Shown in pieces: positions 6,310 to 21,119 of a DNA stretch of 21,119 bases (position 1 is the first letter of the stretch; the number at the start of each line of letters is the position of its first letter). The notes under the pieces were generated by a model. It did not search any database, was not told where the DNA came from, and saw only the letters and a program-made list of their open reading frames with translations. The position numbers and the translations under genes are program-made. The DNA is from a virus, in the IMG/VR virus record IMGVR_UViG_3300025887_000177, positions 1 through 21,119 of that record. One strand, 5' to 3'.

Positions 6310-8313
6310 TTATGATATTGCTGCTATAGCATAGAATATGTAGTCACCATCAGTAAGGCTAGAGGTAGTAGCAAATCCACCTGAGTAAGGATCAACTATA
6401 TCTGCATTTGAAACTTCTGCAGAGTCATCATTTAAGTAAAATGATTTATCATTTCCCGAAACAATGCTTCTTAATATATACCAATTACCTGTATCATCTG
6501 TTCTTTTAAGTATTACTAATGAAGGAGTGTCTCCCGAAAAACCACACGATACATTTGTAGCTCCACTTTGAGTAAATGAACCAACTTTAGATATATCTGC
6601 TACAGTAGCAAAAAGGTAGGCTATGTAGGTTCTTGCAGAAACATTTACATAAGCGTCTGTACCTACAGTAAATGTAGTAGAAGACGCTCCAGTAACTCTA
6701 TTAGTTTCTGTACCATAAGCACCGTTTAGTTCTAATCTAGCACCTTTACTAAACCCTTCAGTTTTGTTATATACAGCCCATCCAACGGCATTACTTCTTG
6801 TTTTTACCCATATCATCTCAGGTTCAACTCCAAGATTATGACTTACGTTTAAAGATGATCCTGTGCCTGTCCATGTGGCTAAGTCAAAATAACCTCTGGC
6901 TCTAGCCCACATGTATGATACATATGTAGCAATCGTACTAGTGCTGTTCCACCATCCATTGTTAAAATCAAATGCGTAATCAGCACCACCATCTGCTTGT
7001 GCATTAGCTGCGTTCATACGTAAATATTGTGGTCCAGTTAAACGTGATGCAATATATCTATCAGCAGTACCATTAGTAATTCCATAAATTCCCATATCTA
7101 CAGGAAAACTTGATCTATATGCAGGTGCTGCACCATCTCCTGTTGAACCAAATGTATCTATATTAAACACACTAGACGCTGCAGTTGGGGTTTGCATACC
7201 ACCACGTCTTATTGCCATGTAGATAAAAGTTTCAGATGGGTCTATAATGTTTGTTCCATCTGTAACAAAACCTGTGGGTGTTGGTGTTATAACAGTATTA
7301 CTAGTTCCTTCAGCATTTAAAAGATTAGCTGCTAACCAAGCATCATTTGAACCATTTACCATACCACGCATTATGTCAACTATAAACCAACTGCTTCCAT
7401 TGTGTGTACCTTTAAACAACACCCATTGTGGCTCAAACCCTAAGTCTACAGTTGCTATACCATTTGAATCAGATGTGAACGAACCACACTTAATAATATC
7501 TTGATCTCCAGGTTCACCAAAGCCACCGTCATCATCGTTGTGTGCGAATAGATAGGCTACATATGGAGCACTATCTACACTATGAGTTGTGCCAACAGTA
7601 AACTGTGTACTTGTAGGCTCAGTATCTCCCCAATAAGTTGCATTATCATATCTTCCATCAGTTAAGTTTAAAAACACACCGTCAGTTGCGTCAATGCTTC
7701 TATGTTTAATGCCCCAATTACCTGCATCATTTAATCGTTTTACCATAATCATTCCAGGCACTGAGCCAAGGTTATGATTTACGGTTTGGGTGGAATTGTC
7801 TCCAGTATATGTAACGATGTCAAAAAATTTAGGTTGTTTTCTAAAACTCCAGGCAACGTAATCGTTTGCAGCAGCTATATCACCACCATCCCAACCGATA
7901 GAGAATCCGTTATTTAAAAATGTTAATCCGTCAGCACCTAAACCACCACTACCGTTAGAACTACTAGGTATTAAACTTTCATTTGTACCTCTCACTGTGT
8001 CTATAATACGTGCAGCTTGTGTGCTTGATCTAGATTTAAACCAAATAAGACCACCTTTACCTGACATATTTAAACCTGTATTAAAAGTTTGCGTAGCAGT
8101 AGAATTATCCCCAGTATACAGAGTTGTGTTGAACAAACCATCAACAAAAGCAGAAGGGTTAACGTTAGCTACGTTAGGCCAGTTACCACCTTTGATAAGG
8201 TCTAGTGCTTCATTGATATCCCATATACCTGACGCTTTGCTATCTTTAAAGTTACCATCAGGTACTACTTTAGAAGAAGATATAACGTTAGCTGTAAAGT
8301 CTTTAGTTGACAT
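6310..8313 (-). CDS. Tail fibre/adhesin with five DUF7483-like beta repeats
   Basis: 667 residues; the ATG (8311-8313) overlaps the stop of the upstream kelch-like gene as TAATG. The N-terminus has a GIWDINEALDLIKGGNWPN motif (29-47), a GxW...WP signature also present in the neighbouring adhesin. Five copies of a beta unit follow, each with a Y/F-T-G/S strand, then LG..P..(I/V)..K and W.I: LYTGDNST (65), TYTGDNSTQTVNHNLGSVPG (169), GSFTSDSNGIATVDLGFEPQ (277), TWTGTGSSLNVSHNLGVEPE (480) and GSFTQSGATN (578). The intervening YVAYLFAHNDDDGGFGEPGDQDIIKC-type segment (251-276) is the phrase I associate with DUF7483 proteins of marine phages. No catalytic motif is seen. It is most likely a receptor-binding or side-fibre component. 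The precise fold is not known to me. Confidence 0.87.
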   Translation of the reverse strand: MSTKDFTANVISSSKVVPDGNFKDSKASGIWDINEALDLIKGGNWPNVANVNPSAFVDGLFNTTLYTGDNSTATQTFNTGLNMSGKGGLIWFKSRSSTQAARIIDTVRGTNESLIPSSSNGSGGLGADGLTFLNNGFSIGWDGGDIAAANDYVAWSFRKQPKFFDIVTYTGDNSTQTVNHNLGSVPGMIMVKRLNDAGNWGIKHRSIDATDGVFLNLTDGRYDNATYWGDTEPTSTQFTVGTTHSVDSAPYVAYLFAHNDDDGGFGEPGDQDIIKCGSFTSDSNGIATVDLGFEPQWVLFKGTHNGSSWFIVDIMRGMVNGSNDAWLAANLLNAEGTSNTVITPTPTGFVTDGTNIIDPSETFIYMAIRRGGMQTPTAASSVFNIDTFGSTGDGAAPAYRSSFPVDMGIYGITNGTADRYIASRLTGPQYLRMNAANAQADGGADYAFDFNNGWWNSTSTIATYVSYMWARARGYFDLATWTGTGSSLNVSHNLGVEPEMIWVKTRSNAVGWAVYNKTEGFSKGARLELNGAYGTETNRVTGASSTTFTVGTDAYVNVSARTYIAYLFATVADISKVGSFTQSGATNVSCGFSGDTPSLVILKRTDDTGNWYILRSIVSGNDKSFYLNDDSAEVSNADIVDPYSGGFATTSSLTDGDYIFYAIAAIS

Positions 8314-9272
8314 TAAGCTATTCCTCCATGTGCAGAAGATGTTGCAGCAGAAAATCTACGGCCTACTACCCCATCTCCAAAGTCGGTAGCATTACCTGTA
8401 GAAGCTATCGTAACAGATTCTATAGTAACTATAGCAACAGCCTCTCCTGCTTCTCTACCATTTATAAACAAACCTTGAGTTTTATTTGCTGTAGCAGTAA
8501 GTGCATATCTAGCAGCCGTTAAATTTCCAAAGTCTGTAGTGTTACCTGTACTAGCTATGGTTATGTACTGAATTACATCTGAAGCACTAGAAGGTATACC
8601 ACCTCCAAATATTCCTCTTGTAGAACCTGCACATGCAGAAAGCTGTTGATTAGCCGCAACTAAGTTACCAAAATCTGTGACATCGCCTGTGCTACCTATT
8701 GTTACATACTCCATTACATCTAAATTAGAACCAGAGTTTCCACCACCAATTACAGCCCTAGTTGCACTAGCTAATCCTGATACATAGTTTTTAGCTGCAC
8801 TTGCATCACCAAAGTCTTGTGCGTTGCCTGTAGAAGCTATTGTTACGTAATCTATTACGTCACTGTTTCCACTACCTGTATTTCCACATGCTGTAAGACT
8901 ACGTGTTGAACTTGATGCTCCTGCTGCACCTCCTCTAGCTACTGTTAAGTCTCCAAAGTCAGCAGTCGTACCTGCACTAGCTATAGTAACATATTGTATT
9001 ACATTATGCCCACTGCCACTAGGATTACCACCAGAAAATAAACCTCTAGTTGAAGAGCCTGACCCTGCAGGTTCTCTTGCACCAACTCCTACATCACCCC
9101 AGTCAGTTGCGTTTCCACCACTACCAAAATTTACTGTGTCTATTGATGCAGCGTCATTACCCCCAGATAATAATGTACCCATACCAAAAACAGCAATGTC
9201 TGGAGGACTAGGCCAAGCACTAGCATACTGCAACTGTGTTGTGAGTGACCACACGCCATTAAAGTTGGGCAT
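8313..9272 (-). CDS. Kelch-like repeat adhesin, second paralogue (six units)
   Basis: 319 residues from the ATG at 9270-9272, which overlaps the upstream stop as TAATG and follows a GGGGGTATT stretch. An upstream in-frame TTG at 9302 lies inside the preceding gene and is rejected as the start. The N-terminus carries GVWSLTTQLQYASAWP (6-21). Six repeat units of about 47 residues follow, with openings AVFGMG (27), RGLFSGG (76), RSLTACG (124), RAVIGGG (172), RGIFGGG (219) and QGLFING (266). Each is followed by a strand like VIQYVTIASTGNATDFGDL. The chain closes with HGGIA, matching a partial repeat start. The pattern resembles kelch-type beta-propellers. It is paralogous to the gene just upstream. 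Its probable role is a tail spike/fibre head binding a host-surface receptor; this is inferred from the context. Confidence 0.88.
   Translation of the reverse strand: MPNFNGVWSLTTQLQYASAWPSPPDIAVFGMGTLLSGGNDAASIDTVNFGSGGNATDWGDVGVGAREPAGSGSSTRGLFSGGNPSGSGHNVIQYVTIASAGTTADFGDLTVARGGAAGASSSTRSLTACGNTGSGNSDVIDYVTIASTGNAQDFGDASAAKNYVSGLASATRAVIGGGNSGSNLDVMEYVTIGSTGDVTDFGNLVAANQQLSACAGSTRGIFGGGIPSSASDVIQYITIASTGNTTDFGNLTAARYALTATANKTQGLFINGREAGEAVAIVTIESVTIASTGNATDFGDGVVGRRFSAATSSAHGGIA
8316..9194 (-). repeat. Six kelch-like repeats (about 47 aa each) in the second adhesin
   Basis: The openings (x-G-hydrophobic-F-x-GG) are at residues 27, 76, 124, 172, 219 and 266, and each unit holds a copy of IASTGN.TDFG(D/N)L...AR. 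Copies are similar but clearly diverged at DNA level. The final HGGIA looks like the beginning of a seventh unit and may complete the first or last blade. Confidence 0.8.
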
Positions 9273-10501
9273 TATGTAATACCCCCATGTGAATTTGAAC
9301 AACCTGCAAGTAATCTTGTTACTGCTGTTAAATCACCAAAGTCAACAGCATTTCCTGCTGAAGCTATAGTAATATATTCAATAATATTAAGTTCACCAAC
9401 ACCCGATAAAATTCCACCTGCAAAAACACCCCTTAAAGTTGAGGATGCAGCACTGAAGTTTTGACGTGCTGCACTAAGATTGCCAAAGTCTGAAGCATTG
9501 CCTGTAGAACCTACGGTAATATAATCTATAACATCCACTGCATCTCCTGCATCTCTGCCACCTGCAATAATACCTCTAGTTGCTGAAGCACAACCAACTG
9601 GAAGCTGCCTTCCTACTGTTAAATTTCCAAAATCAGAAGCGTTACCTGTAGAAGCTATTGTTACATAATCAATAGTGTCTTCAACATATGGATCAGCAGC
9701 AATTTGCCCTCCTGCAAAAAAACCTCTACCTGCGGATGAAGCACCTGCTGCCAAACTATTACGTGCTACTGAAAGATTACCAAAATCAGAAGCGTTACCT
9801 GCTGAAGCCATAGTTACATAATCAATAGTGTCAGTGCGAGCACTATTATCAACCCCTTTTGCGTATATACCCCTAGTGTCATTAGAAGTTCCTGCACCAC
9901 TATTTGCTATTGTAGAAGCATCACCAAAATCTGTGGCGTTGCCTGTAGAGGCAAAAAGAACAAAATCAATTACATTTACACTAGCACCAGCAGCATTTTG
10001 CCCTGCTGCCCAAAGTCCTCTGGTAGCAGAACCAAAACTAGAAGGATTGTATCTTGCTACAGTTAAATCACCATGATCTGTAGCGTTTGCAGTAGTAGTT
10101 ATAACCACAGATTCTACAGTATTATTTGGACTAGTGCTAGTATAACCACCGCCAAATAAAGCTGTTGGTGCTGCAGTAGGAGTAAAACTAGCACTAGCAA
10201 CACTAGGAGCAGATGTACCATAAGCATTTACAGCCCACACTTTAGCTGTAGCTGCAGTACCTGCTGTAAGACTACTTACAACAATAGGTGAAGATGACCC
10301 TGTATTAGAACCTGCACTATAGTCAGTACCGTCTGTACTAACTTGTGCAACAAACCCTGTGATAGCAGACGTACCTGCATCAGTAGGTGCAGTAAATGCC
10401 ACACTAACAGATAATGAACCTGCAGTAGGTGTAACTGCTGTAGGTGGATCAGGAGCATCTAATCCATCAGTACCAATAAAGCCACCGTTCTTATTAGCCA
10501 T
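9272..10501 (-). CDS. Fn3-like domain plus kelch-like repeat adhesin, first paralogue (six units)
   Basis: 409 residues; ATG at 10499-10501, 2 nt after the preceding stop. Residues 18-110 look like a fibronectin type III or similar Ig-like domain: PDPPTAVTPTAGSLSVSVAF, then ITGFVAQVSTDGTDYSAG and AKVWAVNAYGTSAPS. Six repeat units of 46-50 residues follow, opening with ALFGGGY (114), RGLWAAG (161), RGIYAKG (210), RGFFAGG (259), RGIIAGG (309) and RGVFAGG (357). Each contains (V/T)IDYVTIASTGNASDFGNL and ends in a variable loop. The protein ends SHGGIT, the same closure as in the downstream paralogue. I infer a beta-propeller-like receptor-binding protein attached through the Fn3-like domain. No enzyme motif is seen. 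The absence of the GVW...WP motif found in the next two adhesins suggests a different attachment point. Confidence 0.88.
   Translation of the reverse strand: MANKNGGFIGTDGLDAPDPPTAVTPTAGSLSVSVAFTAPTDAGTSAITGFVAQVSTDGTDYSAGSNTGSSSPIVVSSLTAGTAATAKVWAVNAYGTSAPSVASASFTPTAAPTALFGGGYTSTSPNNTVESVVITTTANATDHGDLTVARYNPSSFGSATRGLWAAGQNAAGASVNVIDFVLFASTGNATDFGDASTIANSGAGTSNDTRGIYAKGVDNSARTDTIDYVTMASAGNASDFGNLSVARNSLAAGASSAGRGFFAGGQIAADPYVEDTIDYVTIASTGNASDFGNLTVGRQLPVGCASATRGIIAGGRDAGDAVDVIDYITVGSTGNASDFGNLSAARQNFSAASSTLRGVFAGGILSGVGELNIIEYITIASAGNAVDFGDLTAVTRLLAGCSNSHGGIT
9275..10160 (-). repeat. Six kelch-like repeats (46-50 aa each) in the first adhesin
   Basis: Unit openings are at residues 114, 161, 210, 259, 309 and 357, spaced 47-50 residues. 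Conserved features in each unit are GG after a hydrophobic pair, ID(Y/F)(V/I) and S(T/A)GNA(T/S/V)DFG(D/N)L. The loops between the GG and the ID strand vary most in length and sequence, as expected for exposed binding loops of a propeller. Confidence 0.8.
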
Positions 10502-13608: not shown

Positions 13609-15348
13609 CTAACGTCTTGCTCCTACTTGATATTCTAATTGAAACCCTTTAAGGGAATACGGTGCTGTTTCTCCACCGTCATTAATTCTTAGTGCAACAG
13701 AAAAACCTGAACCCTCTACTGGTTGTCTTACAAGTGGCTGTGAAGGACCACCAAAAACAAATTGCACTGCACTGCTACTAGTACTAAAAATAGCTGTACC
13801 AAATAAAGCAGCTACATCTGAAGTATCTAACGCATAGGGAGCAGGTCTTGCTGAGTCTGTAGATTCGTTATCATACAACATTAACAAGTCTGCATCAATG
13901 GATGACTCAGGTTTATAGTTAAGGATAACTCTTTGCATGTGTTTTCTAACACCAGTATCTCCAAAACTTAAATCTGGACTTCTATATCTTCCTAGTATTG
14001 CTGTTCCATCAAAAGTATTACCTCTTTCTTGTCTGTGAACATATCCTGAAAAGTCACCATGTATGACTCTAACATCTCCATCAACAACTAAAGTATCTGT
14101 AGCTGAAGGTTTTACTCCACGTATTTCTGCAAACTCAAATTTGTCTGCTCTTCTAACACAAATAATACCTTTTGTTATTTTTTCACCCTGTCCTACTTTT
14201 GAGAAAAATATTCTGTACTGTGTTTTATCTGGTATAACTACACTTTCAAATACTGTTGAGTCTTTAATATTAACATCAAAGATAGACTGTACGTTTTGTG
14301 TAATAGCACCAAGAGCCGTATCACCAATTCTTGCAGTAGCAGCAACAGTCCTAAGTCCATCAGGACCAAGGAATAATAAATCACCTGCAAATTCTTGTAT
14401 AGTATCTTTATTAACACAACCAATATCTCTAGTAACTGGTTGTATAGCAAAGTCACTGAGAGTAGATCCTGTCATTTTAAATATTCTGTTTTCACAAAAT
14501 ATAAACAGTGCATCCCTAAATACTTTTAATCCAACAATGTTATCGTCTACTTTAATAGTACCTGCACCTTGACCTCCTGTAAAACCATCTTCATCAAAGG
14601 GTTCACTAAACACTAAGGTTTGAGGTGTAGTAGACTTACCTGCGTAAAACATGTGAGATTTAAAAGCTACAACTATTGTAGATCCTGCTACAGAACTTTC
14701 ACTTACATCTGTTGCAGATAAAGAAGAGTTAAAAATAGTTGGAGCGTTTGTACCGTCTACAACAATAATCTTTTCGTTGCCGTCAAAGTTATATCGTTCA
14801 AAACTGTACTTATCCGCACTAGTTCTCCCAGTATCTCGTTCAGTCCAAGACTCTGACACTGCATCATCAACAGCATGATCAGCAGCAGTTGTACTTGACG
14901 TAGCACGAGTTACACCTGTAAAAGTACTGGCGGTAACACCAGTATACGTAAATAACTCATCGTTAATTTGTAATGTTCCGCTAGAAGTAAAGCCTGTTGT
15001 TGAGTCTACATTTAAAGTTCCTGATCCTGTCATACCTGTGCCAGATGCAACTTTATTTGTAAGCTCCGTAGACGCAGAACTAAATATCTTCTCACCTCTA
15101 GCTGCTACTATTTTATCTGCAAAGTTAGCAACCATAAGTATTTTTTCACCAGAACTAGATGTCTGAGGTACTTGTTGATTTACGTATTTACGAAAGCCAT
15201 TTATTCTCCTGTAGCCACCCTCAATGTCAGGCTCAAAGTTTTCTAACTCTAACGCTTCACCAGGTTGCATTAGAAACGTAGAACGGTTTAAAACTAAACC
15301 ACCCTCACAGTTAAACGCTGCAGGTTGAGCTTGAGAAAGATCAGGCAT
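13609..15348 (-). CDS. Tail nozzle / DNA-stabilisation protein (T7 gp12 or P22 gp10-like role)
   Basis: 579 residues; the ATG (15346-15348) overlaps the stop of the adaptor gene as TAATG. The N-terminus has NFEPDIEGGYRRINGFRKY (37-55), a phrase typical of phage tail-tube B/stabilisation proteins. Beta-propeller-like strands follow: KILMVANFADKIVAARGEKI (69-88), NEKIIVVDGTNAPTIF, FKSHMFYAGK, IVGLKVFRDALFIFCENRIF and FAGDLLFLGPDGLRTVAATA. Residues 106-165 are an inserted beta module (STTGFTSSG...FTYTGV...FTGVTR) that is related to one in the neighbouring adaptor. The length is between P22 gp10 and T7 gp12. In the virion it should form the end of the short tail and hold the packaged DNA. Assignment rests on these motifs and on its order after the adaptor and before the fibre. 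Confidence 0.85.
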   Translation of the reverse strand: MPDLSQAQPAAFNCEGGLVLNRSTFLMQPGEALELENFEPDIEGGYRRINGFRKYVNQQVPQTSSSGEKILMVANFADKIVAARGEKIFSSASTELTNKVASGTGMTGSGTLNVDSTTGFTSSGTLQINDELFTYTGVTASTFTGVTRATSSTTAADHAVDDAVSESWTERDTGRTSADKYSFERYNFDGNEKIIVVDGTNAPTIFNSSLSATDVSESSVAGSTIVVAFKSHMFYAGKSTTPQTLVFSEPFDEDGFTGGQGAGTIKVDDNIVGLKVFRDALFIFCENRIFKMTGSTLSDFAIQPVTRDIGCVNKDTIQEFAGDLLFLGPDGLRTVAATARIGDTALGAITQNVQSIFDVNIKDSTVFESVVIPDKTQYRIFFSKVGQGEKITKGIICVRRADKFEFAEIRGVKPSATDTLVVDGDVRVIHGDFSGYVHRQERGNTFDGTAILGRYRSPDLSFGDTGVRKHMQRVILNYKPESSIDADLLMLYDNESTDSARPAPYALDTSDVAALFGTAIFSTSSSAVQFVFGGPSQPLVRQPVEGSGFSVALRINDGGETAPYSLKGFQLEYQVGARR

Positions 15349-16286
15349 TATGAAATAACTCCTGCCATAAAGTTAGCAGAACCTCTAGGAGTTATAAGAA
15401 CTGTAGATCTTACATACTCGTATTTGTTGATAAGCAAGCTCTGCATGTTTTTAATGCCTTGCTCAAACCTACCAAAGTTTAATTGGTACTGTTGTATCTC
15501 ACCACGATATTGATAAACAAAAGCTGTAGCACCATCTACAATTACAGGACCAAACCTGTCTGGTATACTTGTAGTATCACCATGTGCAGATAGGTCAGAA
15601 GGAAATGTAAAGTAATCAAAGACTAGTGTGTATTGTTTGTCTGGGTAAGGATATAACAAGTAGTTATTATCTGGGGTGCGTACTATATTTCTAGGAACAC
15701 CTCCACCATCAAACTGCGTTACTGTTGTACCATCTGCATGTAAAGCAGCAGTTGTACTGTTAGCACCCCTTGTGCAACCTGTAATATCGTTACCTGAAAC
15801 AGCAGTATAAGTTACTTGCTCACCACCAATGTACACTTTACCTGATGCAGAAAAACCTGTGGTAGAAGTTAAAGTAAGAGTTGTTACAGAACTTGAGTGT
15901 GATCCGTTAAGAGTTGTTGATTTAATCTGATCTTCCTCGTTAGGATAATCTTTATCAATGTACTCATTATAGTTAAGAGAAACTAAATTATTACCTGCAG
16001 AGTTAAGATCATCATCTTTTTTAATTCTTGCAGTGTTATAGTCTACTGACTTAGTACTTGTAGGTAGGCTGTACCTTGCTACACCTGGAGTCAAAGTAGA
16101 AGAATTTTGTGCGTGGTTAAAAGAGTATCCAAACTCTCTTTGATTAATATATCTTATAGCTTCATTAACAGCATTTTTACATTGTACCTGGACACCCCTT
16201 GCACTAGTAAAATTAGTAGAGGTAAGCACTACTTCATTCATGCGTGTAATAACATCGTTAGTTAACGAAAGAAATGTCAAAGCCAT
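15348..16286 (-). CDS. Head-tail adaptor / tail tubular protein A-like
   Basis: 312 residues; ATG at 16284-16286 with an AAGGA ribosome binding site 6 nt upstream, placed inside a hairpin. The N-terminal helical part (VITRMNEVVLTSTNF, then VQCKNAVNEAIRYINQREF), the GYSFNHAQNSSTLTPGVARY segment and the C-terminal helices (IVDGATAFVYQYRGEIQQYQ, then FGRFEQGIKNMQSLLINKYE) fit the adaptor / tail tubular A family of short-tailed phages. These proteins form a ring between the portal and the nozzle. The protein is longer than T7 gp11 mainly because residues 123-190 form an extra beta module (STTGFSASGKVYIGGEQVTY, then GCTRGANSTTAALHADGTTV) resembling one in the next gene. The string GGVPRNIVRTPDNNYLLYPY (195-214) resumes the family core. 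Confidence 0.83.
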   Translation of the reverse strand: MALTFLSLTNDVITRMNEVVLTSTNFTSARGVQVQCKNAVNEAIRYINQREFGYSFNHAQNSSTLTPGVARYSLPTSTKSVDYNTARIKKDDDLNSAGNNLVSLNYNEYIDKDYPNEEDQIKSTTLNGSHSSSVTTLTLTSTTGFSASGKVYIGGEQVTYTAVSGNDITGCTRGANSTTAALHADGTTVTQFDGGGVPRNIVRTPDNNYLLYPYPDKQYTLVFDYFTFPSDLSAHGDTTSIPDRFGPVIVDGATAFVYQYRGEIQQYQLNFGRFEQGIKNMQSLLINKYEYVRSTVLITPRGSANFMAGVIS

Positions 16287-16293
16287 ATTGTTT

Positions 16294-16312
16294 CCTTTAG
16301 ATAAGCTAAAGG
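16294..16312 (-). promoter_or_regulatory. Hairpin covering the ribosome binding site of the adaptor gene
   Basis: The minus-strand sequence CCTTTAG-CTTAT-CTAAAGG is a perfect 7-bp stem with a 5-nt loop. The 3' arm contains the AAGG of the Shine-Dalgarno sequence (16294-16297) of the gene starting at 16286, so folding would hide it. The 5' arm shares two bases (16311-16312) with the terminator-like hairpin just upstream, so the two structures cannot both be fully formed. Translational control is inferred. Confidence 0.6.
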
Positions 16313-16332
16313 GGCCAACCTAAGTCAGCCCC
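16311..16332 (-). terminator. Terminator-like hairpin after the decoration gene
   Basis: On the minus strand GGGGCTGAC-TTAG-GTTGGCCCC forms a 9-bp stem with two G-U pairs and a 4-nt loop, beginning 11 nt after the stop of the capsid decoration gene. Downstream the strand reads TTTAGCTT, which is a weak U tract. It is therefore probably a partial terminator or an RNA-processing and stabilising structure that lowers expression of the tail genes compared with the head genes. Confidence 0.6.
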
Positions 16333-16342
16333 AAAAGTTGTT

Positions 16343-16876
16343 TTATGCTAAGTCACGAGCAGCAACCGCTGCTTCTGTTTGTGCAGCAGAAACATCGACA
16401 ACTACTGCGTAGACACGTAAGCGTCCAGTTGCAGCAGCAGCACCTGCGATTGTAACATCGATAGTGTCAGCAGTACCCACAAGAGCCAAAGACTCAGCAG
16501 CATACGTAGAAGCTGCACCTGTGTTTACAATATTAGCTTCACCGTTACTACCTTTTACAAGGTATGTACCTGCTGCAGCATCTAGTGCCGCACCATCAAT
16601 GATGTCATCTCCACCACCAAAGTCAATGTTACAAGTACAACTTGCAGTAAAAGACTTCATGATTTCAGCACCTGCAGCAATCACAATTGATTCAGAAGGT
16701 ACTTCTAGTAGTTGAAAGATGTCACCGTTAGCAATAGTAGCACCTGCAGCAATCATAGCGTCAATGTCTAAGATCGCTTCCATAGTGCGTACTGTATTTC
16801 CTACTACAGTTGGAACAGCAAGAACGTCTGCACCAACACCTGCAGTAGAAGAGAGAGTCATATCAAAAGTAGCCAT
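16343..16876 (-). CDS. Probable capsid decoration/head protein
   Basis: 177 residues; ATG at 16874-16876 with a GGAGG ribosome binding site (16886-16890), 16 nt after the coat stop, so it is co-expressed with the coat gene. The sequence is small-residue rich (Ala, Gly, Val, Thr) and beta-like throughout, with acidic turns such as IDFGGGDDIIDGAALDAAAG. The strand pattern runs VRTMEAILDIDAMI, ANGDIFQLLEVPSESIVIAA, IMKSFTASCTCNIDF, ESLALVGTADTIDVTI and GRLRVYAVVVDVS. The last ten residues (EAAVAARDLA) are helical. It lacks membrane and catalytic motifs. Position directly after the coat gene, size and composition are those of head decoration or head-fibre proteins. The exact family is not recognised, and the terminator-like hairpin downstream groups it with the coat gene. 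Confidence 0.8.
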   Translation of the reverse strand: MATFDMTLSSTAGVGADVLAVPTVVGNTVRTMEAILDIDAMIAAGATIANGDIFQLLEVPSESIVIAAGAEIMKSFTASCTCNIDFGGGDDIIDGAALDAAAGTYLVKGSNGEANIVNTGAASTYAAESLALVGTADTIDVTIAGAAAATGRLRVYAVVVDVSAAQTEAAVAARDLA

Positions 16877-16892
16877 AAGTTATATCCTCCCC

Positions 16893-17966
16893 TTACGCTG
16901 CGTTATATTTAGCAGTAACCAAGGCTTCTGGCCTTAGTATTTTTCTGCCGTATAGATGCATACCACGAACAATGTCAGCAAAGCTGTCAGGGTCACGATA
17001 AGTTTCAGTCTTGCTGATTTGCTCCGCAGTTGCGACAGCAGAATCATGACCACCAACGATAACACCAAAGTTAGTAAGTTGGTTTGCAGTGCCTGATGTA
17101 CCTGGACCTGTGCCTAGAGCAGGAAGGTTTGATGATACATATAGACGGAAACCATGAAAGTTATTGATAGTAAGACCGTTACGTAGTCCACCACTTTCAC
17201 CGTAGTCTCCATTCATGAAGCGTGAGTCCTCATCAGAGAGTAGCTCCATAAACACTGGGTCAACAACAAGCCATCTACCTTGGGTATCAACTTGTTGTAC
17301 GTCAAGCAATCGTTTCATTCTTGCAACAATCATTGCAGGTGAAACTGTAGCTGTTGGTAGAGATGTAGCACCTGGCATACGAGCAGTTACTGGGATTGAA
17401 TGATCCCCTGCTGATGTTGTCGTAATGTTACCAAATGAATCTTTACGTAGCTTCATGCTTGTAAGCAACTCGTCTGAACCTGCAGAAGAAACAGACTTTG
17501 AACCATTTACTTGGTCATTTACTGTATCAGCTTTTGAGTGTAGACTTGACTGCTTAAAACCTGACAGATAGCCAAGAACTTCTTGGTCATACTGATCAGC
17601 TAGTCTGTAAGCTGCACGATCCGTTGCAAGTTGCATGAAGTTTACATGTGAGTGCGCTTCTTCGATATCGTCCATCTTAAAAGCATAGTAGTTGCTTTTA
17701 TCTACGACTAACTGAAAATCGTCATCTTCAAGATCTTGTGCTGTGATGTTTGTACCACGAGCATAAGCTTGGACAGAAATTTCAGGTTCTTTAATAATAC
17801 GCACAGTATCACCTTGTGCGCTAATCTCTCCGAAATAATCAGAGTTAGTTATGTCTCCTACAGTAGCAGCTTTACGGAAAGCAAGCTGTACTTTTTTGGA
17901 GTAGATTATTGGCGAAAAGTTACCGTTTGGTAAATTGCCATAACCTGTTGCGGTTTGAAAAGCCAT
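16893..17966 (-). CDS. Major capsid protein (HK97-fold type, predicted)
   Basis: 357 residues from ATG 17964-17966. The start is decided by a perfect GGAGG at 17976-17980 (9-nt spacing) and the MAFQTATGYGNLPNGNF beginning; an in-frame GTG at 18014 would add 16 residues but has no ribosome binding site. The sequence has coat-protein features: FSPIIYSKKVQLAFRKAATV (18-37), DYFGEISAQGDTVRIIKEPE (43-62), a QDLEDDDFQLVVDKSNYYAF run followed by KMDDIEEAHSHVN (77-109), and a central MIVARMKRLLDVQQVDTQGR segment leading to WLVVDPVFMELL. In phages with HK97-fold coats, the VDKxxYYxFxMDDIE stretch is typical of the P22/N4-like branch. It follows the scaffold gene and has its own promoter and leader. 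It should form the icosahedral shell. Confidence 0.9.
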   Translation of the reverse strand: MAFQTATGYGNLPNGNFSPIIYSKKVQLAFRKAATVGDITNSDYFGEISAQGDTVRIIKEPEISVQAYARGTNITAQDLEDDDFQLVVDKSNYYAFKMDDIEEAHSHVNFMQLATDRAAYRLADQYDQEVLGYLSGFKQSSLHSKADTVNDQVNGSKSVSSAGSDELLTSMKLRKDSFGNITTTSAGDHSIPVTARMPGATSLPTATVSPAMIVARMKRLLDVQQVDTQGRWLVVDPVFMELLSDEDSRFMNGDYGESGGLRNGLTINNFHGFRLYVSSNLPALGTGPGTSGTANQLTNFGVIVGGHDSAVATAEQISKTETYRDPDSFADIVRGMHLYGRKILRPEALVTAKYNAA

Positions 17967-18172
17967 GATTAAAATCCTCCATGATATTTGGCTTTGAGAA
18001 TAAAGCTTAAACACCTGAAAGAGGCTGTACGTTTTCTAGGGTGCAGAGAGCATTCAGTTGCGCTACCGAATACTACTGGGCCTATACTTGGACAGGTAGT
18101 TCTTTGTAGTTTAGACTTTTGGGTTAAATGTATCTTTGAAGGTAGTCCTTACGGAGGCTTCAAGTCAGATAC
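17967..18172 (-). other. Long structured 5' leader of the coat gene
   Basis: Between the predicted transcription start (about 18171) and the coat ATG there are about 205 non-coding nt. The leader begins with a bulged hairpin (18130-18172). It contains two ACTACC copies of its own (minus strand at 18141-18146 and 18095-18100), a third lying just upstream over the -10 region at 18174-18179. It ends with a small GCTTT/AAAGC hairpin (17991-18006) just upstream of the GGAGG. No convincing small ORF is present. I do not recognise any known riboswitch class. A stabilising or regulatory role for the coat mRNA is inference. Confidence 0.5.
18130..18172 (-). promoter_or_regulatory. 5'-terminal stem-loop of the coat transcript
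   Basis: Minus strand GTATCT (18172-18167), bulge GAC, TTGAAG (18163-18158), apical CCT/AGG stem with CCGTA loop, CTTCAA (18141-18136), AGATAC (18135-18130). Two perfect 6-bp helices are interrupted by a 3-nt bulge. The first base coincides with the start site expected from the promoter, so the mRNA would begin in a stable hairpin, a known way to protect transcripts from 5'-end-dependent decay. Confidence 0.6.
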
Positions 18173-18177
18173 TGGTA

Positions 18178-18205
18178 GTTATATGCTTGACTTAATATAT
18201 GTCAA
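18178..18205 (-). promoter_or_regulatory. Sigma-70-like promoter of the coat gene
   Basis: Minus-strand TTGACA (18205-18200, perfect -35 consensus), 16-nt spacer, TATAAC (18183-18178, one mismatch to the -10 consensus). It lies in the non-coding gap right after the scaffold stop codon, which strengthens the call. It would give the coat and decoration genes extra transcription beyond that from the upstream operon. Confidence 0.72.
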
Positions 18206-18209
18206 CCAT

Positions 18210-19160
18210 TTATCTTGCAGAACCAGACATATCATAAACAAACTTGCCATTACGCATAGATTCGTTTATCTTGTCCTGCATTTCCTCAAACTCCTTACTA
18301 GACATTCTAGCTACATCAGACTCTTTTATTTGTCCTTGTACGCCTTTTGCGTCTACAGAAGTACGAGTTCCTTTAGCAACAGTAGATGCTGCAGCTTTTC
18401 TAGATTGTTTCTTAGCTGCTATAGTCATACCGTTGTCAATTTTAAATAAGTCAATCACACGTACAACTGACGCAGGATCATCCATATTTTCGTAGAGTGC
18501 ATCCTTAACCCACTTGGGTTGTTCGTCTGCCCAGTTGTGAAACTGATCTGATTGTCTTAGCTCATCAAAGTCTTCGTGAGACTTGCGAATAACATTCTCT
18601 GACTTTATTCTTTGAGCTTCAGAGTGAGCCTCATCTAACTCTTGTAAACGTGACTCAGCCTTGTTGAACATCTCTTGAGCTTTCTTAGCTGCAATAGTTT
18701 CAACAATACCTGCTACGTCTGGGTACTCACTTGCCCACTTCTCTATGTCTTCATCAGACTTAGGAGGAACAATACCCTCACGTTTACTTTTGTTTTCTAG
18801 AGCGTCAAACTTTTCTTGCCACTCTTTTTCTTTAGAAGCTAAGTGTTTACGAATGTCACCGTAGCGTTTCTTAAAAGACTTTTCTTCAGCGTTTAACTCG
18901 CTGTCATCGTCTTCCTGTGCTTTGGTTTCCTCTGAGGTTTCTTCTTGTTGAGTATTACTCGTTGCTTGAACTTCGGAGTTCTCAGTACCATTGCTACTGG
19001 ATTCCTGTTGTTCTTCCACTTCTTCACCACGAGCCTCTGCTTCTAGTCTAGCAATCTCAGCCTCTTCAGCTTCCATTTGCTTTTGTTTCTTAGCGTGGTT
19101 ATATCCACGATCTACAAAACCTGCTGTTTTAGGTTTTTCCATTGTAGTTAGTTCAGGCAT
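18210..19160 (-). CDS. Capsid scaffolding / assembly protein
   Basis: 316 residues; ATG at 19158-19160 with AAAGGAG about 10 nt upstream. The composition is very acidic and Gln/Ser rich at the N-terminus (residues 28-95, with EEAEIARLEAEARGEEVEEQ and a run of Glu/Asp/Ser), then coiled-coil helices (91-125 and 155-195). A globular-like helical region DFDELRQSDQFHNWADEQPK WVKDAL (197-222) and a basic C-terminal part (KKQSRKAAASTVAKG, 250-264) complete it. This acidic N-terminal/basic C-terminal layout and the DFDELR...FHNWA...PKWV phrase are typical of scaffold proteins in T7-like and marine podovirus-like phages. It directs coat assembly around the portal and is removed at packaging. The coat gene follows it, separated by a promoter-bearing gap. 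Confidence 0.88.
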   Translation of the reverse strand: MPELTTMEKPKTAGFVDRGYNHAKKQKQMEAEEAEIARLEAEARGEEVEEQQESSSNGTENSEVQATSNTQQEETSEETKAQEDDDSELNAEEKSFKKRYGDIRKHLASKEKEWQEKFDALENKSKREGIVPPKSDEDIEKWASEYPDVAGIVETIAAKKAQEMFNKAESRLQELDEAHSEAQRIKSENVIRKSHEDFDELRQSDQFHNWADEQPKWVKDALYENMDDPASVVRVIDLFKIDNGMTIAAKKQSRKAAASTVAKGTRTSVDAKGVQGQIKESDVARMSSKEFEEMQDKINESMRNGKFVYDMSGSAR

Positions 19161-19184
19161 TTAAAGTTCTCCTTTATGTTGGGG

Positions 19185-19201
19185 CCAGGAACCATTCCTG
19201 G
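19185..19201 (-). promoter_or_regulatory. Hairpin upstream of the scaffold gene
   Basis: Minus strand CCAGGAA-TGG-TTCCTGG forms a perfect 7-bp stem in the 60-nt gap 19161..19220. It is not followed by a U tract (CCCCAACATAAAGGAG follows), so it is unlikely to terminate transcription. It may act as an RNA-processing or stability element upstream of the scaffold mRNA. Confidence 0.4.
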
Positions 19202-19220
19202 GTAGCCTTATTGTTATTGT

Positions 19221-21119
19221 TTACTTCTTGCCCTTTTTTTTCATTAGTCCACCTTTGTTCATCGGACCAGTAATATCTGAGCCACCTGGACCTGCACCTA
19301 CATCAGATCCTGCTATCATTTGTGCACCAGAAAGTTTTCTAGCTGTGTCTGTGCTAATACCAGAAGCTTTAGCTTTTATTATTGCTTTTGCTCTACCTGA
19401 CGATGTTCCTTTACTAGCTTGTTTTTTAGAAGCAGCTATGTTTGCTTTATTTTTTTGTTTTTTCGTTTGAACTAAAGGACTAGATGTAGAATCAGATTTT
19501 TTAGTCTTAAAGATTCTATCTACTATATTTTTATAATCCTTGTCTTTTTGTAATGCAGAAGCAGTTGAAGTTCCGTTTATTCCACCTTCAGGAACAAACT
19601 GTAAAGCTTTGTTGTTTTCTACTACTTTTCTTGCTTTTCCACGTAGTACTTCAGCTAACTTATCATTTCCTTCTGCTTCTGCAATAATAGCTAAAGCTCT
19701 TGTTCGTGCTACACTTTGGCCTAGTTTAATTATACCATCATCTTTTTTACCTAGATTTTCATCTGCCCATGCTACAGGGTCTGTAATATTTTCTGCCCAA
19801 GCATTAGGATCTGGTTTTGGTACAGGTGGTCGTATATTAACACCTCCTCCGTTTCCACCTATTGTTGGGGGAGTTACAGCTTTTGTTTTTGAGTATCCCT
19901 CTGTTATAAGCCTAGCTACTTCTGCTGTGTCTGCTTCACTTAGAGGCATGGTAAACATTCTTATTTCACCATTAGGACCATAGAGAGTCATACTCTCAGG
20001 AATTGCAGGTGTATCTGCAACTGGTGGTTGTTGCTGTGGTTGACCACCCATAAAACTGTAACCTGCTCCATAATTAAAAGGATCAAATGGATTTTGAGCA
20101 TACATCATTTGATCTTGAGCAGGAGTAACAGGAGTAACTGGTCCTCCTGGTTGATAGCCTTGTACTTGACCACCACTAGCCATGCTTTGCATAGGCATCT
20201 GATTCTCTACAGGATTAGGATTGATGTTAGTTAAAGTTGTGTTTCTTTTTTCATCTATAGGAGCAGGTCTAGGTTGACTGTACAGTTGTTGTTGTTGGAG
20301 GTAAGGGTTTTGTACCTGACCACCTTCATTCATGTTAGCACCCATCATCTCTTGTATAGCTTGCATTTCTTGAGGGGATAACTCACTGTCGTTTATAGGA
20401 CCACCTGCAGGTACAGGCTCTCCACCTATACGCCCATTGGCTTCCATATCAGCTAGACCCATCTTAGCTTGATCTCTTAGATCTTCAAAGAACTTGACAC
20501 CGTAGTATCTGACAACATCAGCAGGAACGACATACTCACCCTCAGAGAGTTGTGCAGGAATATCATCTCGTACTTCTTCTGCAAGAGAGCCAGGTGGTAC
20601 TTCGTTTCCTGATACTGGATCTACGTCCAGATCATCATCTATTATTCCACCCTCATCCATAAATGCCATCTTCATTTGATCGTCCATTACTGCACCGCCC
20701 TTGTTAAAAGGAAAAACATCTGGGTCTGTCTTCTTTGCATTTTTTGCTAAGACCAAATGTCCTACCTGAATTACTTCATCTGCTTCTAGGATTGCTTGTC
20801 CAGTTTCTCTGTCATAAAAGAAACCTCTTTTTATTGGGTCATACCCTACTTGTGTCCACTCACTACTATCAAAAACTTCTTTTGACATAGTGAAAAGTTC
20901 ATCATCAGTACCCTCTACATATTCGCCTGTCATAACAGCAAAAGGATTTTTTTCACCACCCTCTGCTACTTTAAGAGCTTTAGAGCTATCTGTTCTTTTT
21001 GCACTACCACTTAAAGTAGGTTTTATAAAGTTGACATTTTTTAGTCTAACTGCAGCTTTGTATTTTTCTTTTCCATCATGCCTAATTGTAGGAACCCAAA
21101 CATTGTAGTCAGTATATGC
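19221..21119 (-). CDS. Large virion protein, C-terminal 632 residues, polyvalent-protein-like domain plus GG-motif linkers (cut by right edge)
   Basis: The frame is open from the right edge (codon 21117-21119) to the TAA at 19221-19223; an internal Met at 20933 is not the start because 62 in-frame codons precede it. Visible parts: DYNVWVPTIRHDGKEKYKAA, then EKNPFAVMTGEYVEGTDDEL, QVGYDPIKRGFFYDRETGQA and EADEVIQVGHLVLAKN form a region that resembles a conserved domain of phage large polyvalent proteins. Next comes SGNEVPPGSLAEEVRDDIPA with LSEGEYVVPADVVRYYGVKF, a phrase I recall from marine phage proteins. Low-complexity Gly/Gln/Pro sequence with short GG motifs (NKGGAV, NEGGQV, ASGGQV) follows, and a Lys-rich end (KGGLMKKKGKK). 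The upstream place of the scaffold gene would suit a portal-adjacent minor head protein. The role is unknown. Confidence 0.8.
   Translation of the reverse strand, partial: AYTDYNVWVPTIRHDGKEKYKAAVRLKNVNFIKPTLSGSAKRTDSSKALKVAEGGEKNPFAVMTGEYVEGTDDELFTMSKEVFDSSEWTQVGYDPIKRGFFYDRETGQAILEADEVIQVGHLVLAKNAKKTDPDVFPFNKGGAVMDDQMKMAFMDEGGIIDDDLDVDPVSGNEVPPGSLAEEVRDDIPAQLSEGEYVVPADVVRYYGVKFFEDLRDQAKMGLADMEANGRIGGEPVPAGGPINDSELSPQEMQAIQEMMGANMNEGGQVQNPYLQQQQLYSQPRPAPIDEKRNTTLTNINPNPVENQMPMQSMASGGQVQGYQPGGPVTPVTPAQDQMMYAQNPFDPFNYGAGYSFMGGQPQQQPPVADTPAIPESMTLYGPNGEIRMFTMPLSEADTAEVARLITEGYSKTKAVTPPTIGGNGGGVNIRPPVPKPDPNAWAENITDPVAWADENLGKKDDGIIKLGQSVARTRALAIIAEAEGNDKLAEVLRGKARKVVENNKALQFVPEGGINGTSTASALQKDKDYKNIVDRIFKTKKSDSTSSPLVQTKKQKNKANIAASKKQASKGTSSGRAKAIIKAKASGISTDTARKLSGAQMIAGSDVGAGPGGSDITGPMNKGGLMKKKGKK

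Follow-up and report, generated by a model that had tools for sequence, protein, structure and literature searches.

A conserved structured RNA between the promoter and the coat gene of HMO-2011-type ocean phages

Comparison of homologous leaders indicates that the coat gene of an HMO-2011-type podovirus is preceded by a conserved promoter of its own and by a conserved structured RNA. The promoter, the RNA, its helices and its link to the coat gene all emerge from this comparison. The RNA probably regulates coat protein output, since its conserved fold draws on bases that are otherwise used to conceal the ribosome-binding site. The window, by which we mean the whole stretch of DNA analyzed, is a 21-kb virus record of 21,119 nucleotides with all of its main genes on the minus strand, the strand of every promoter and leader feature given below in window coordinates. 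The major capsid (coat) gene is of the P22-coat type (16893–17966, minus strand, ATG at 17966–17964), and its product is 78% identical to the coat protein of Roseobacter phage CRP-9 and 71% identical to that of HMO-2011. The upstream gene (18210–19160, minus strand) occupies the scaffold position and belongs to PHROG 13678, a family of unknown function. HMO-2011-type phages are described as dominant and widely distributed in the ocean (PMC9038755). An RNA fixed to the capsid gene in phages of SAR116, Roseobacter, and Rhizobium would mean that tailed DNA phages control coat synthesis by RNA.

The promoter of the coat transcript, TTGACA-N16-TATAAC (18178–18205), begins 5 bp past the stop of the upstream gene, in the gap before the coat gene. 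TTGACA lies at 18205–18200 and TATAAC at 18183–18178, with a 16-nt spacer between them. The initial annotation had described exactly this pair, a perfect TTGACA and a near-perfect TATAAC at 16-nt spacing, and its positions for the promoter, the first hairpin, the GGAGG and the ATG were correct to within 1–2 bases. The exact sequence TTGACA-N16-TATAACTA occurs once in the window and is also the promoter consensus of the homologous leaders; 274 of the 297 leaders with a detected promoter keep the 16-nt spacing. Conserved −35 and −10 hexamers within a spacing of 15–19 nt support a sigma-70-type promoter. A simple promoter scan missed the TATAAC site solely because it accepts a second hexamer only if this ends in T. 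In the CRP-235 group TTGACA is rare (8 of 76), and a TGnTATAAT site is found instead in 43 of 80.

Sites of the form TTGACA-N15-18-TAWAACTA also recur outside the coat leader. Among the phages compared (CRP-1, CRP-345, CRP-2, CRP-207, CRP-603, and HMO-2011), they occur at ∼11–13 kb on the plus strand in the CRP phages but not in HMO-2011, and at ∼53–54 kb on the minus strand in CRP-1, CRP-345, CRP-603, and HMO-2011. The reversed pattern, used as a control, gave zero matches in the same phages. These sites are possibly a promoter set of the HMO-2011-type phage group.

The architecture of the leader, a 5′ hairpin followed by a nested second domain, was read from the sequences and tested afterwards. 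Hairpin 1 (18130–18172) comprises an outer stem, the first copy of an internal loop, an inner stem and a terminal loop. As proposed in the initial annotation, it is built from two 6-bp helices (GTATCT/AGATAC and TTGAAG/CTTCAA) and a 3-nt bulge (GAC); its stability is −13.3 kcal/mol (z = −3.0), and 2 of 200 shuffled sequences were equally stable. A linker (18105–18129), part of which, AAAGTCTAAAC, is conserved among close relatives, leads to domain 2 (18019–18104), the core of the RNA. The earlier suggestion of a structured leader RNA was thus real but incomplete, since domain 2 had been overlooked. Within domain 2, stem 2a pairs 18104–18101 with 18022–18019, and stem 2b pairs 18094–18092 with 18028–18026 and 18084–18082 with 18039–18037. 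Loop copy 2 sets ACUACC (18100–18095) opposite GCC (18025–18023), and loop copy 3 sets GCC (18081–18079) opposite CACC (18043–18040). Inside the domain lies hairpin C (18044–18078), with the loop AGCGCA at 18059–18064.

The two loops of domain 2 are oppositely oriented copies of one asymmetric internal loop, of the type GCC opposite CUACC. They flank a shared short stem and face away from it, giving a pseudo-two-fold arrangement. The same loop is found in hairpin 1, where GCC (18158–18156) lies opposite CUACC (18145–18141), and this repeated element may represent a new building block of RNA structure. It resembles the C-loop motif (PMC8983868) in being an asymmetric internal loop whose longer strand, as is often the case in C-loops, begins with C. 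In the published C-loop example the short strand is all A and makes C-A and A-U contacts. Identity with the C-loop was rejected, as the short strand is GCC in 81/81 domain 2 sequences.

Covariation was assessed with 414 coat upstream sequences collected in five IMG/VR scans, for which five coat proteins were used, and from cultured phages. The most conserved segments of the leader are short C-rich blocks, and the intervening stems vary in sequence and in length. With anchors picked from sequence alone in 194 distinct leaders, outer pair 2 of stem 2b was GC in 94, AT in 41, and CG in 35 (95% paired versus 53% when shuffled), and inner pair 2 was AT in 97 and TA in 60 (88% versus 48%). Hairpin 1 and hairpin C, anchored in the same way, also covaried strongly. 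The compensatory changes in both helices of hairpin 1 that the initial annotation had proposed to look for in homologous leaders were found. In a MAFFT alignment of a narrower set (A2), 20 of 34 pairs changed on both sides, with a score of 0.379 against 0.151 for shuffled and at most 0.146 for slid partners, and 86% of cells were paired against 72.7% (shuffled) and 42–44% (one-base slide). In an 81-sequence alignment fitted to a covariance model (A3), whose counts are therefore biased toward that model, 33 of 34 pairs changed on both sides, the score was 0.602 versus 0.172, and 88.7% of cells were paired versus 58.6% when shuffled. The A2 and anchored counts are independent of the model, yet are drawn from related sequences. 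Across these comparisons the leader behaves as a conserved structured RNA with helices that covary across homologs.

Automated folding recovered less of this architecture. RNAalifold run on a plain MAFFT alignment (A1) returned almost no structure because stems of variable length fall out of register; the alternative GGC/GCC pairing that it suggested is invariant throughout, so that covariation cannot judge it. The narrower set A2 yielded hairpin C without guidance, together with a local CCUG/UAGG hairpin. The latter was set aside as a candidate for the main fold because the pair at its end shows one-sided changes and is broken in one leader (L035), in contrast to the nested stem 2b, which covaries.

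Shared descent or a feature acting at the DNA level could in principle account for these patterns without any RNA function. Related sequences do inflate shuffle tests, and the excess of G-U over A-C on the coat strand, only two-fold in A3 (154 versus 72), is slight in A2 (40 versus 35). However, the long-range pairs contain hundreds of double changes, the pairing collapses in both A2 and A3 when partners are slid by a single base, and stem lengths vary around constant loops. We consider this explanation barely credible.

The invariance of the loops stands out against the variable helices. In the 81 aligned sequences the domain 2 loop strands ACC, GCC, ACC, and GCC, twelve bases in all, are 100% invariant in 81/81, whereas the paired columns average only 53% conservation. 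For the anchored counts this invariance is partly built in, as the anchoring rule requires ACC and GCC; the covariance models contain no such rule, but their training sequences carry both.

The RNA was found strictly in front of coat genes, once per genome. A covariance model (R1) trained on 23 close relatives matched one site per genome in CRP-1, -2, -3, -9, -13, -235, and -345 and in HMO-2011 (E = 1e-7 for HMO-2011), and at E values up to 0.001 all of its 81 matches in 457 kb lay at the place and on the strand of the coat leader. The second model (R2) added CRP-207, -212, and -603 and ctYwJ313 and gave weak matches at the correct place in Rhizobium and Sinorhizobium phages (E = 0.02 and 0.005). 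R2 also found left-out leaders, and 46 of its 47 matches had the place and strand of the coat leader; among exact-motif matches the coat gene came next in 119 of 119 testable cases. R2 did not find the RNA in the Pelagibacter phages HTVC033P, HTVC103P, and HTVC115P (the last with one chance-level match elsewhere), nor in Vibrio phage CHOED, Aeromonas phage 1233, Slicky01, or phiSASD1; these distant coat relatives have a short gap before the coat gene. The long leader of CRP-738 contains similar blocks but scores below threshold. Coat matches in bacterial genomes, which come from marine metagenome-assembled contigs with mixed taxon names, were excluded because they are probably phage contigs binned with hosts. 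Contigs of this phage group (L529–L537) occur in metagenome-assembled genomes labeled Flavobacteriales, Neomarinimicrobiota, and Euryarchaeota, among others; two of the contig names each appear in two such genomes, which makes the binning suspect.

Some leaders depart from the common plan. Hairpin 1 is the variable part; it is a plain hairpin in the HMO-2011 group and is lost in ctYwJ313 (L084), where the leader is reduced to its 3′ part, with domain 2 kept and hairpin 1 and the usual promoter gone. Immediately upstream of that leader lies a gene for an HNH-type endonuclease (815–1384 of ctYwJ313), in the place held in related phages by the end of the scaffold-position gene. Three leaders (L057, L058, and L071) carry an extra insert of ∼50 nt (GAGTCGGGATG..CTCA), with inverted repeats of its own, in the segment that separates the ribosome-binding site from the last GCC.

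The coat leader RNA is previously uncatalogued. A search of Rfam 15 with the window and 15 relatives gave zero matches at the gathering threshold and only chance-level matches at a permissive one, in agreement with the initial view that the leader fits no recognized riboswitch class. A tRNA remnant was rejected, ARAGORN giving no match, as was a terminator or attenuator, none being detected inside the leader by a scan of 16000–21119. Two genome papers on HMO-2011-type phages mention neither promoters nor non-coding or untranslated elements; an earlier description elsewhere is possible.

The ribosome-binding site of the coat gene, GGAGG, was found at 17980–17976, before the ATG, as first annotated. 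An alternative hairpin (17975–18022) pairs CUUUC (18021–18017) with this GGAGG and is incompatible with stem 2a. The second small hairpin in the initial annotation, AGCTTT..AAAGC, is present and forms the tip of this GGAGG-holding hairpin in the predicted free fold. In the minimum free energy fold of the window leader (−56.3 kcal/mol) the GGAGG is paired with the CUUUC that follows the last GCC, with a predicted unpaired probability of 0.01. With domain 2 enforced (−53.0 kcal/mol), four of its five bases are predicted to be unpaired with probabilities of 0.76–0.85. The two predicted folds are mutually exclusive because their strands overlap at 18021–18019. A predicted free fold that hides the GGAGG fits regulation better than the simple high expression suggested initially.

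The effect differed among groups. Over 129 leaders, the mean predicted openness of the site rose from 0.27 in the free fold to 0.51 with domain 2 enforced, and the free value was slightly below the 0.31 of a control in which the intervening segment was shuffled (p = 0.003). Group means rose from 0.20 to 0.52 for the window group, from 0.12 to 0.69 for CRP-2, and from 0.15 to 0.50 for Rhizobium; predicted opening was strong in CRP-2 and moderate for the window and Rhizobium, while HMO leaders showed a weak effect and CRP-235 leaders none. By nearest-neighbor energies, the median cost of enforcing domain 2 is ∼3–7 kcal/mol in most groups, and a switch model would therefore require added stabilization. 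The ribosome-binding site coevolves with its partner in the CRP-2 group (0 of 5000 permutations), where GAAAGGA occurs with UUUCA-type partners and AUAAGGAG with CUCUUUA, and the two also coevolve in the CRP-235 group (12 of 5000). There was no advantage of cognate pairing in the window and HMO groups, whose strands show little variation; HMO was slightly reversed, and a test stratified over all groups was weak (280 of 5000). Family-wide coevolution of the site and its partner was not supported.

From these folds we infer a switch, its direction and its trigger. The sigma-70-type promoter would give a coat transcript whose long leader folds into the 5′ hairpin and then the rod-like domain 2, its two internal-loop copies set about a short stem. 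When domain 2 is formed, its last strand (UCUU, just past the invariant GCC) would be occupied and the GGAGG free; when it is not, UCUU would pair with the GGAGG and coat translation would be low. The balance would be set by binding to the invariant loops, either of a phage or host protein or of a second copy of the RNA through the palindromic loop of hairpin C. Action in cis on coat translation is the most likely role of the leader, although we hold this account as a whole, with its ribosome-site switch, to be about evenly balanced. The folding predictions make the switch most likely for the window clade and stop short of proof across the family.

In a tentative reading that we think somewhat unlikely, the RNA is a protein operator. 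The coat protein, the scaffold protein or a host protein would bind the GCC/CUACC loops and exert feedback on coat translation, with ribosome-site pairing as a lineage-specific output. The two or three copies of the invariant loop, in a two-fold arrangement, could be read by a dimeric protein; the RNA is flanked by the coat gene and the gene in the scaffold position, and the loop is kept even in lineages without a predicted ribosome-site switch. Against this, the RNA is absent before more distant P22-type coat genes.

A small molecule seems a very improbable effector. Loop bases that stay constant while the stems around them vary and covary, together with a predicted hairpin that competes at the ribosome site, are what a riboswitch would show, but the RNA was always found on one structural gene and never on genes of metabolism or of a ligand pathway, no Rfam riboswitch matched, and a coat gene suggests no obvious ligand. 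Translational riboswitches and ribosomal-protein leaders share with the coat leader a long structured 5′ region, invariant loops in covarying stems and an alternative pairing of the ribosome-binding site, here predicted; the coat leader differs in its phage coat gene, in its lack of an Rfam 15 match and in its non-uniform switch. The manA, wcaG, and PhotoRC-II motifs of marine phages and cyanophages are likewise structured RNAs found by comparison (Weinberg 2010, PMC2864571). However, they adjoin metabolic or photosynthesis genes, whereas the RNA described here adjoins the coat gene, and the words "capsid" and "coat" do not occur in that text.

Stabilization of the coat mRNA, proposed initially, would have the 5′-terminal hairpin and the compact fold block decay. 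Most groups do have a hairpin at the expected start or close to it, with energies well below those of shuffled sequences (mean z of −1.6 to −3.9), and a hairpin persists where loop copy 1 is lost. Such a role leaves the invariant loop bases and the long-range domain 2 unexplained, and ctYwJ313 keeps domain 2 without hairpin 1. As the chief function it is improbable; it may be an additional one.

The loop of hairpin C has a palindromic core, GCGC in the window and GGCC, GATC, or GTAC in relatives. These four sequences, which are all of the possible G..C palindromes, account for 128 of the 171 resolvable loops; 15 others are GGCA or GGCG and 28 are different again. On the coat-protein tree the loop changed state 36 times. 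A loop that changes yet is mostly palindromic hints at the self-pairing of two leaders. GGCA and GGCG loops recur as exceptions, and a strict kissing-loop rule was rejected as universal. The packaging RNA of phi29 is a podovirus RNA that self-associates through loops. It shares with the present RNA its type of phage, and loop C here is mostly palindromic; the coat leader differs in being an mRNA leader fixed before the coat gene and in having no Rfam match. It is an unlikely, if attractive, extension that these leaders are a new class of ocean-phage RNA, dimerizing through the palindromic loop and sensing their own concentration, or the coat or scaffold protein, through the twice-repeated invariant loop. 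If so, capsid protein output would be set by the RNA itself.

Two further regions of the window were noted. The protein encoded at 13609–15348 has amidase (lysis) as its best PHROG label, which is doubtful, as it is encoded amid virion genes and has further matches to head-closure and internal virion families. At 8313–10501, two neighboring tail-region proteins are made of STGNATDFGNL-type repeats.
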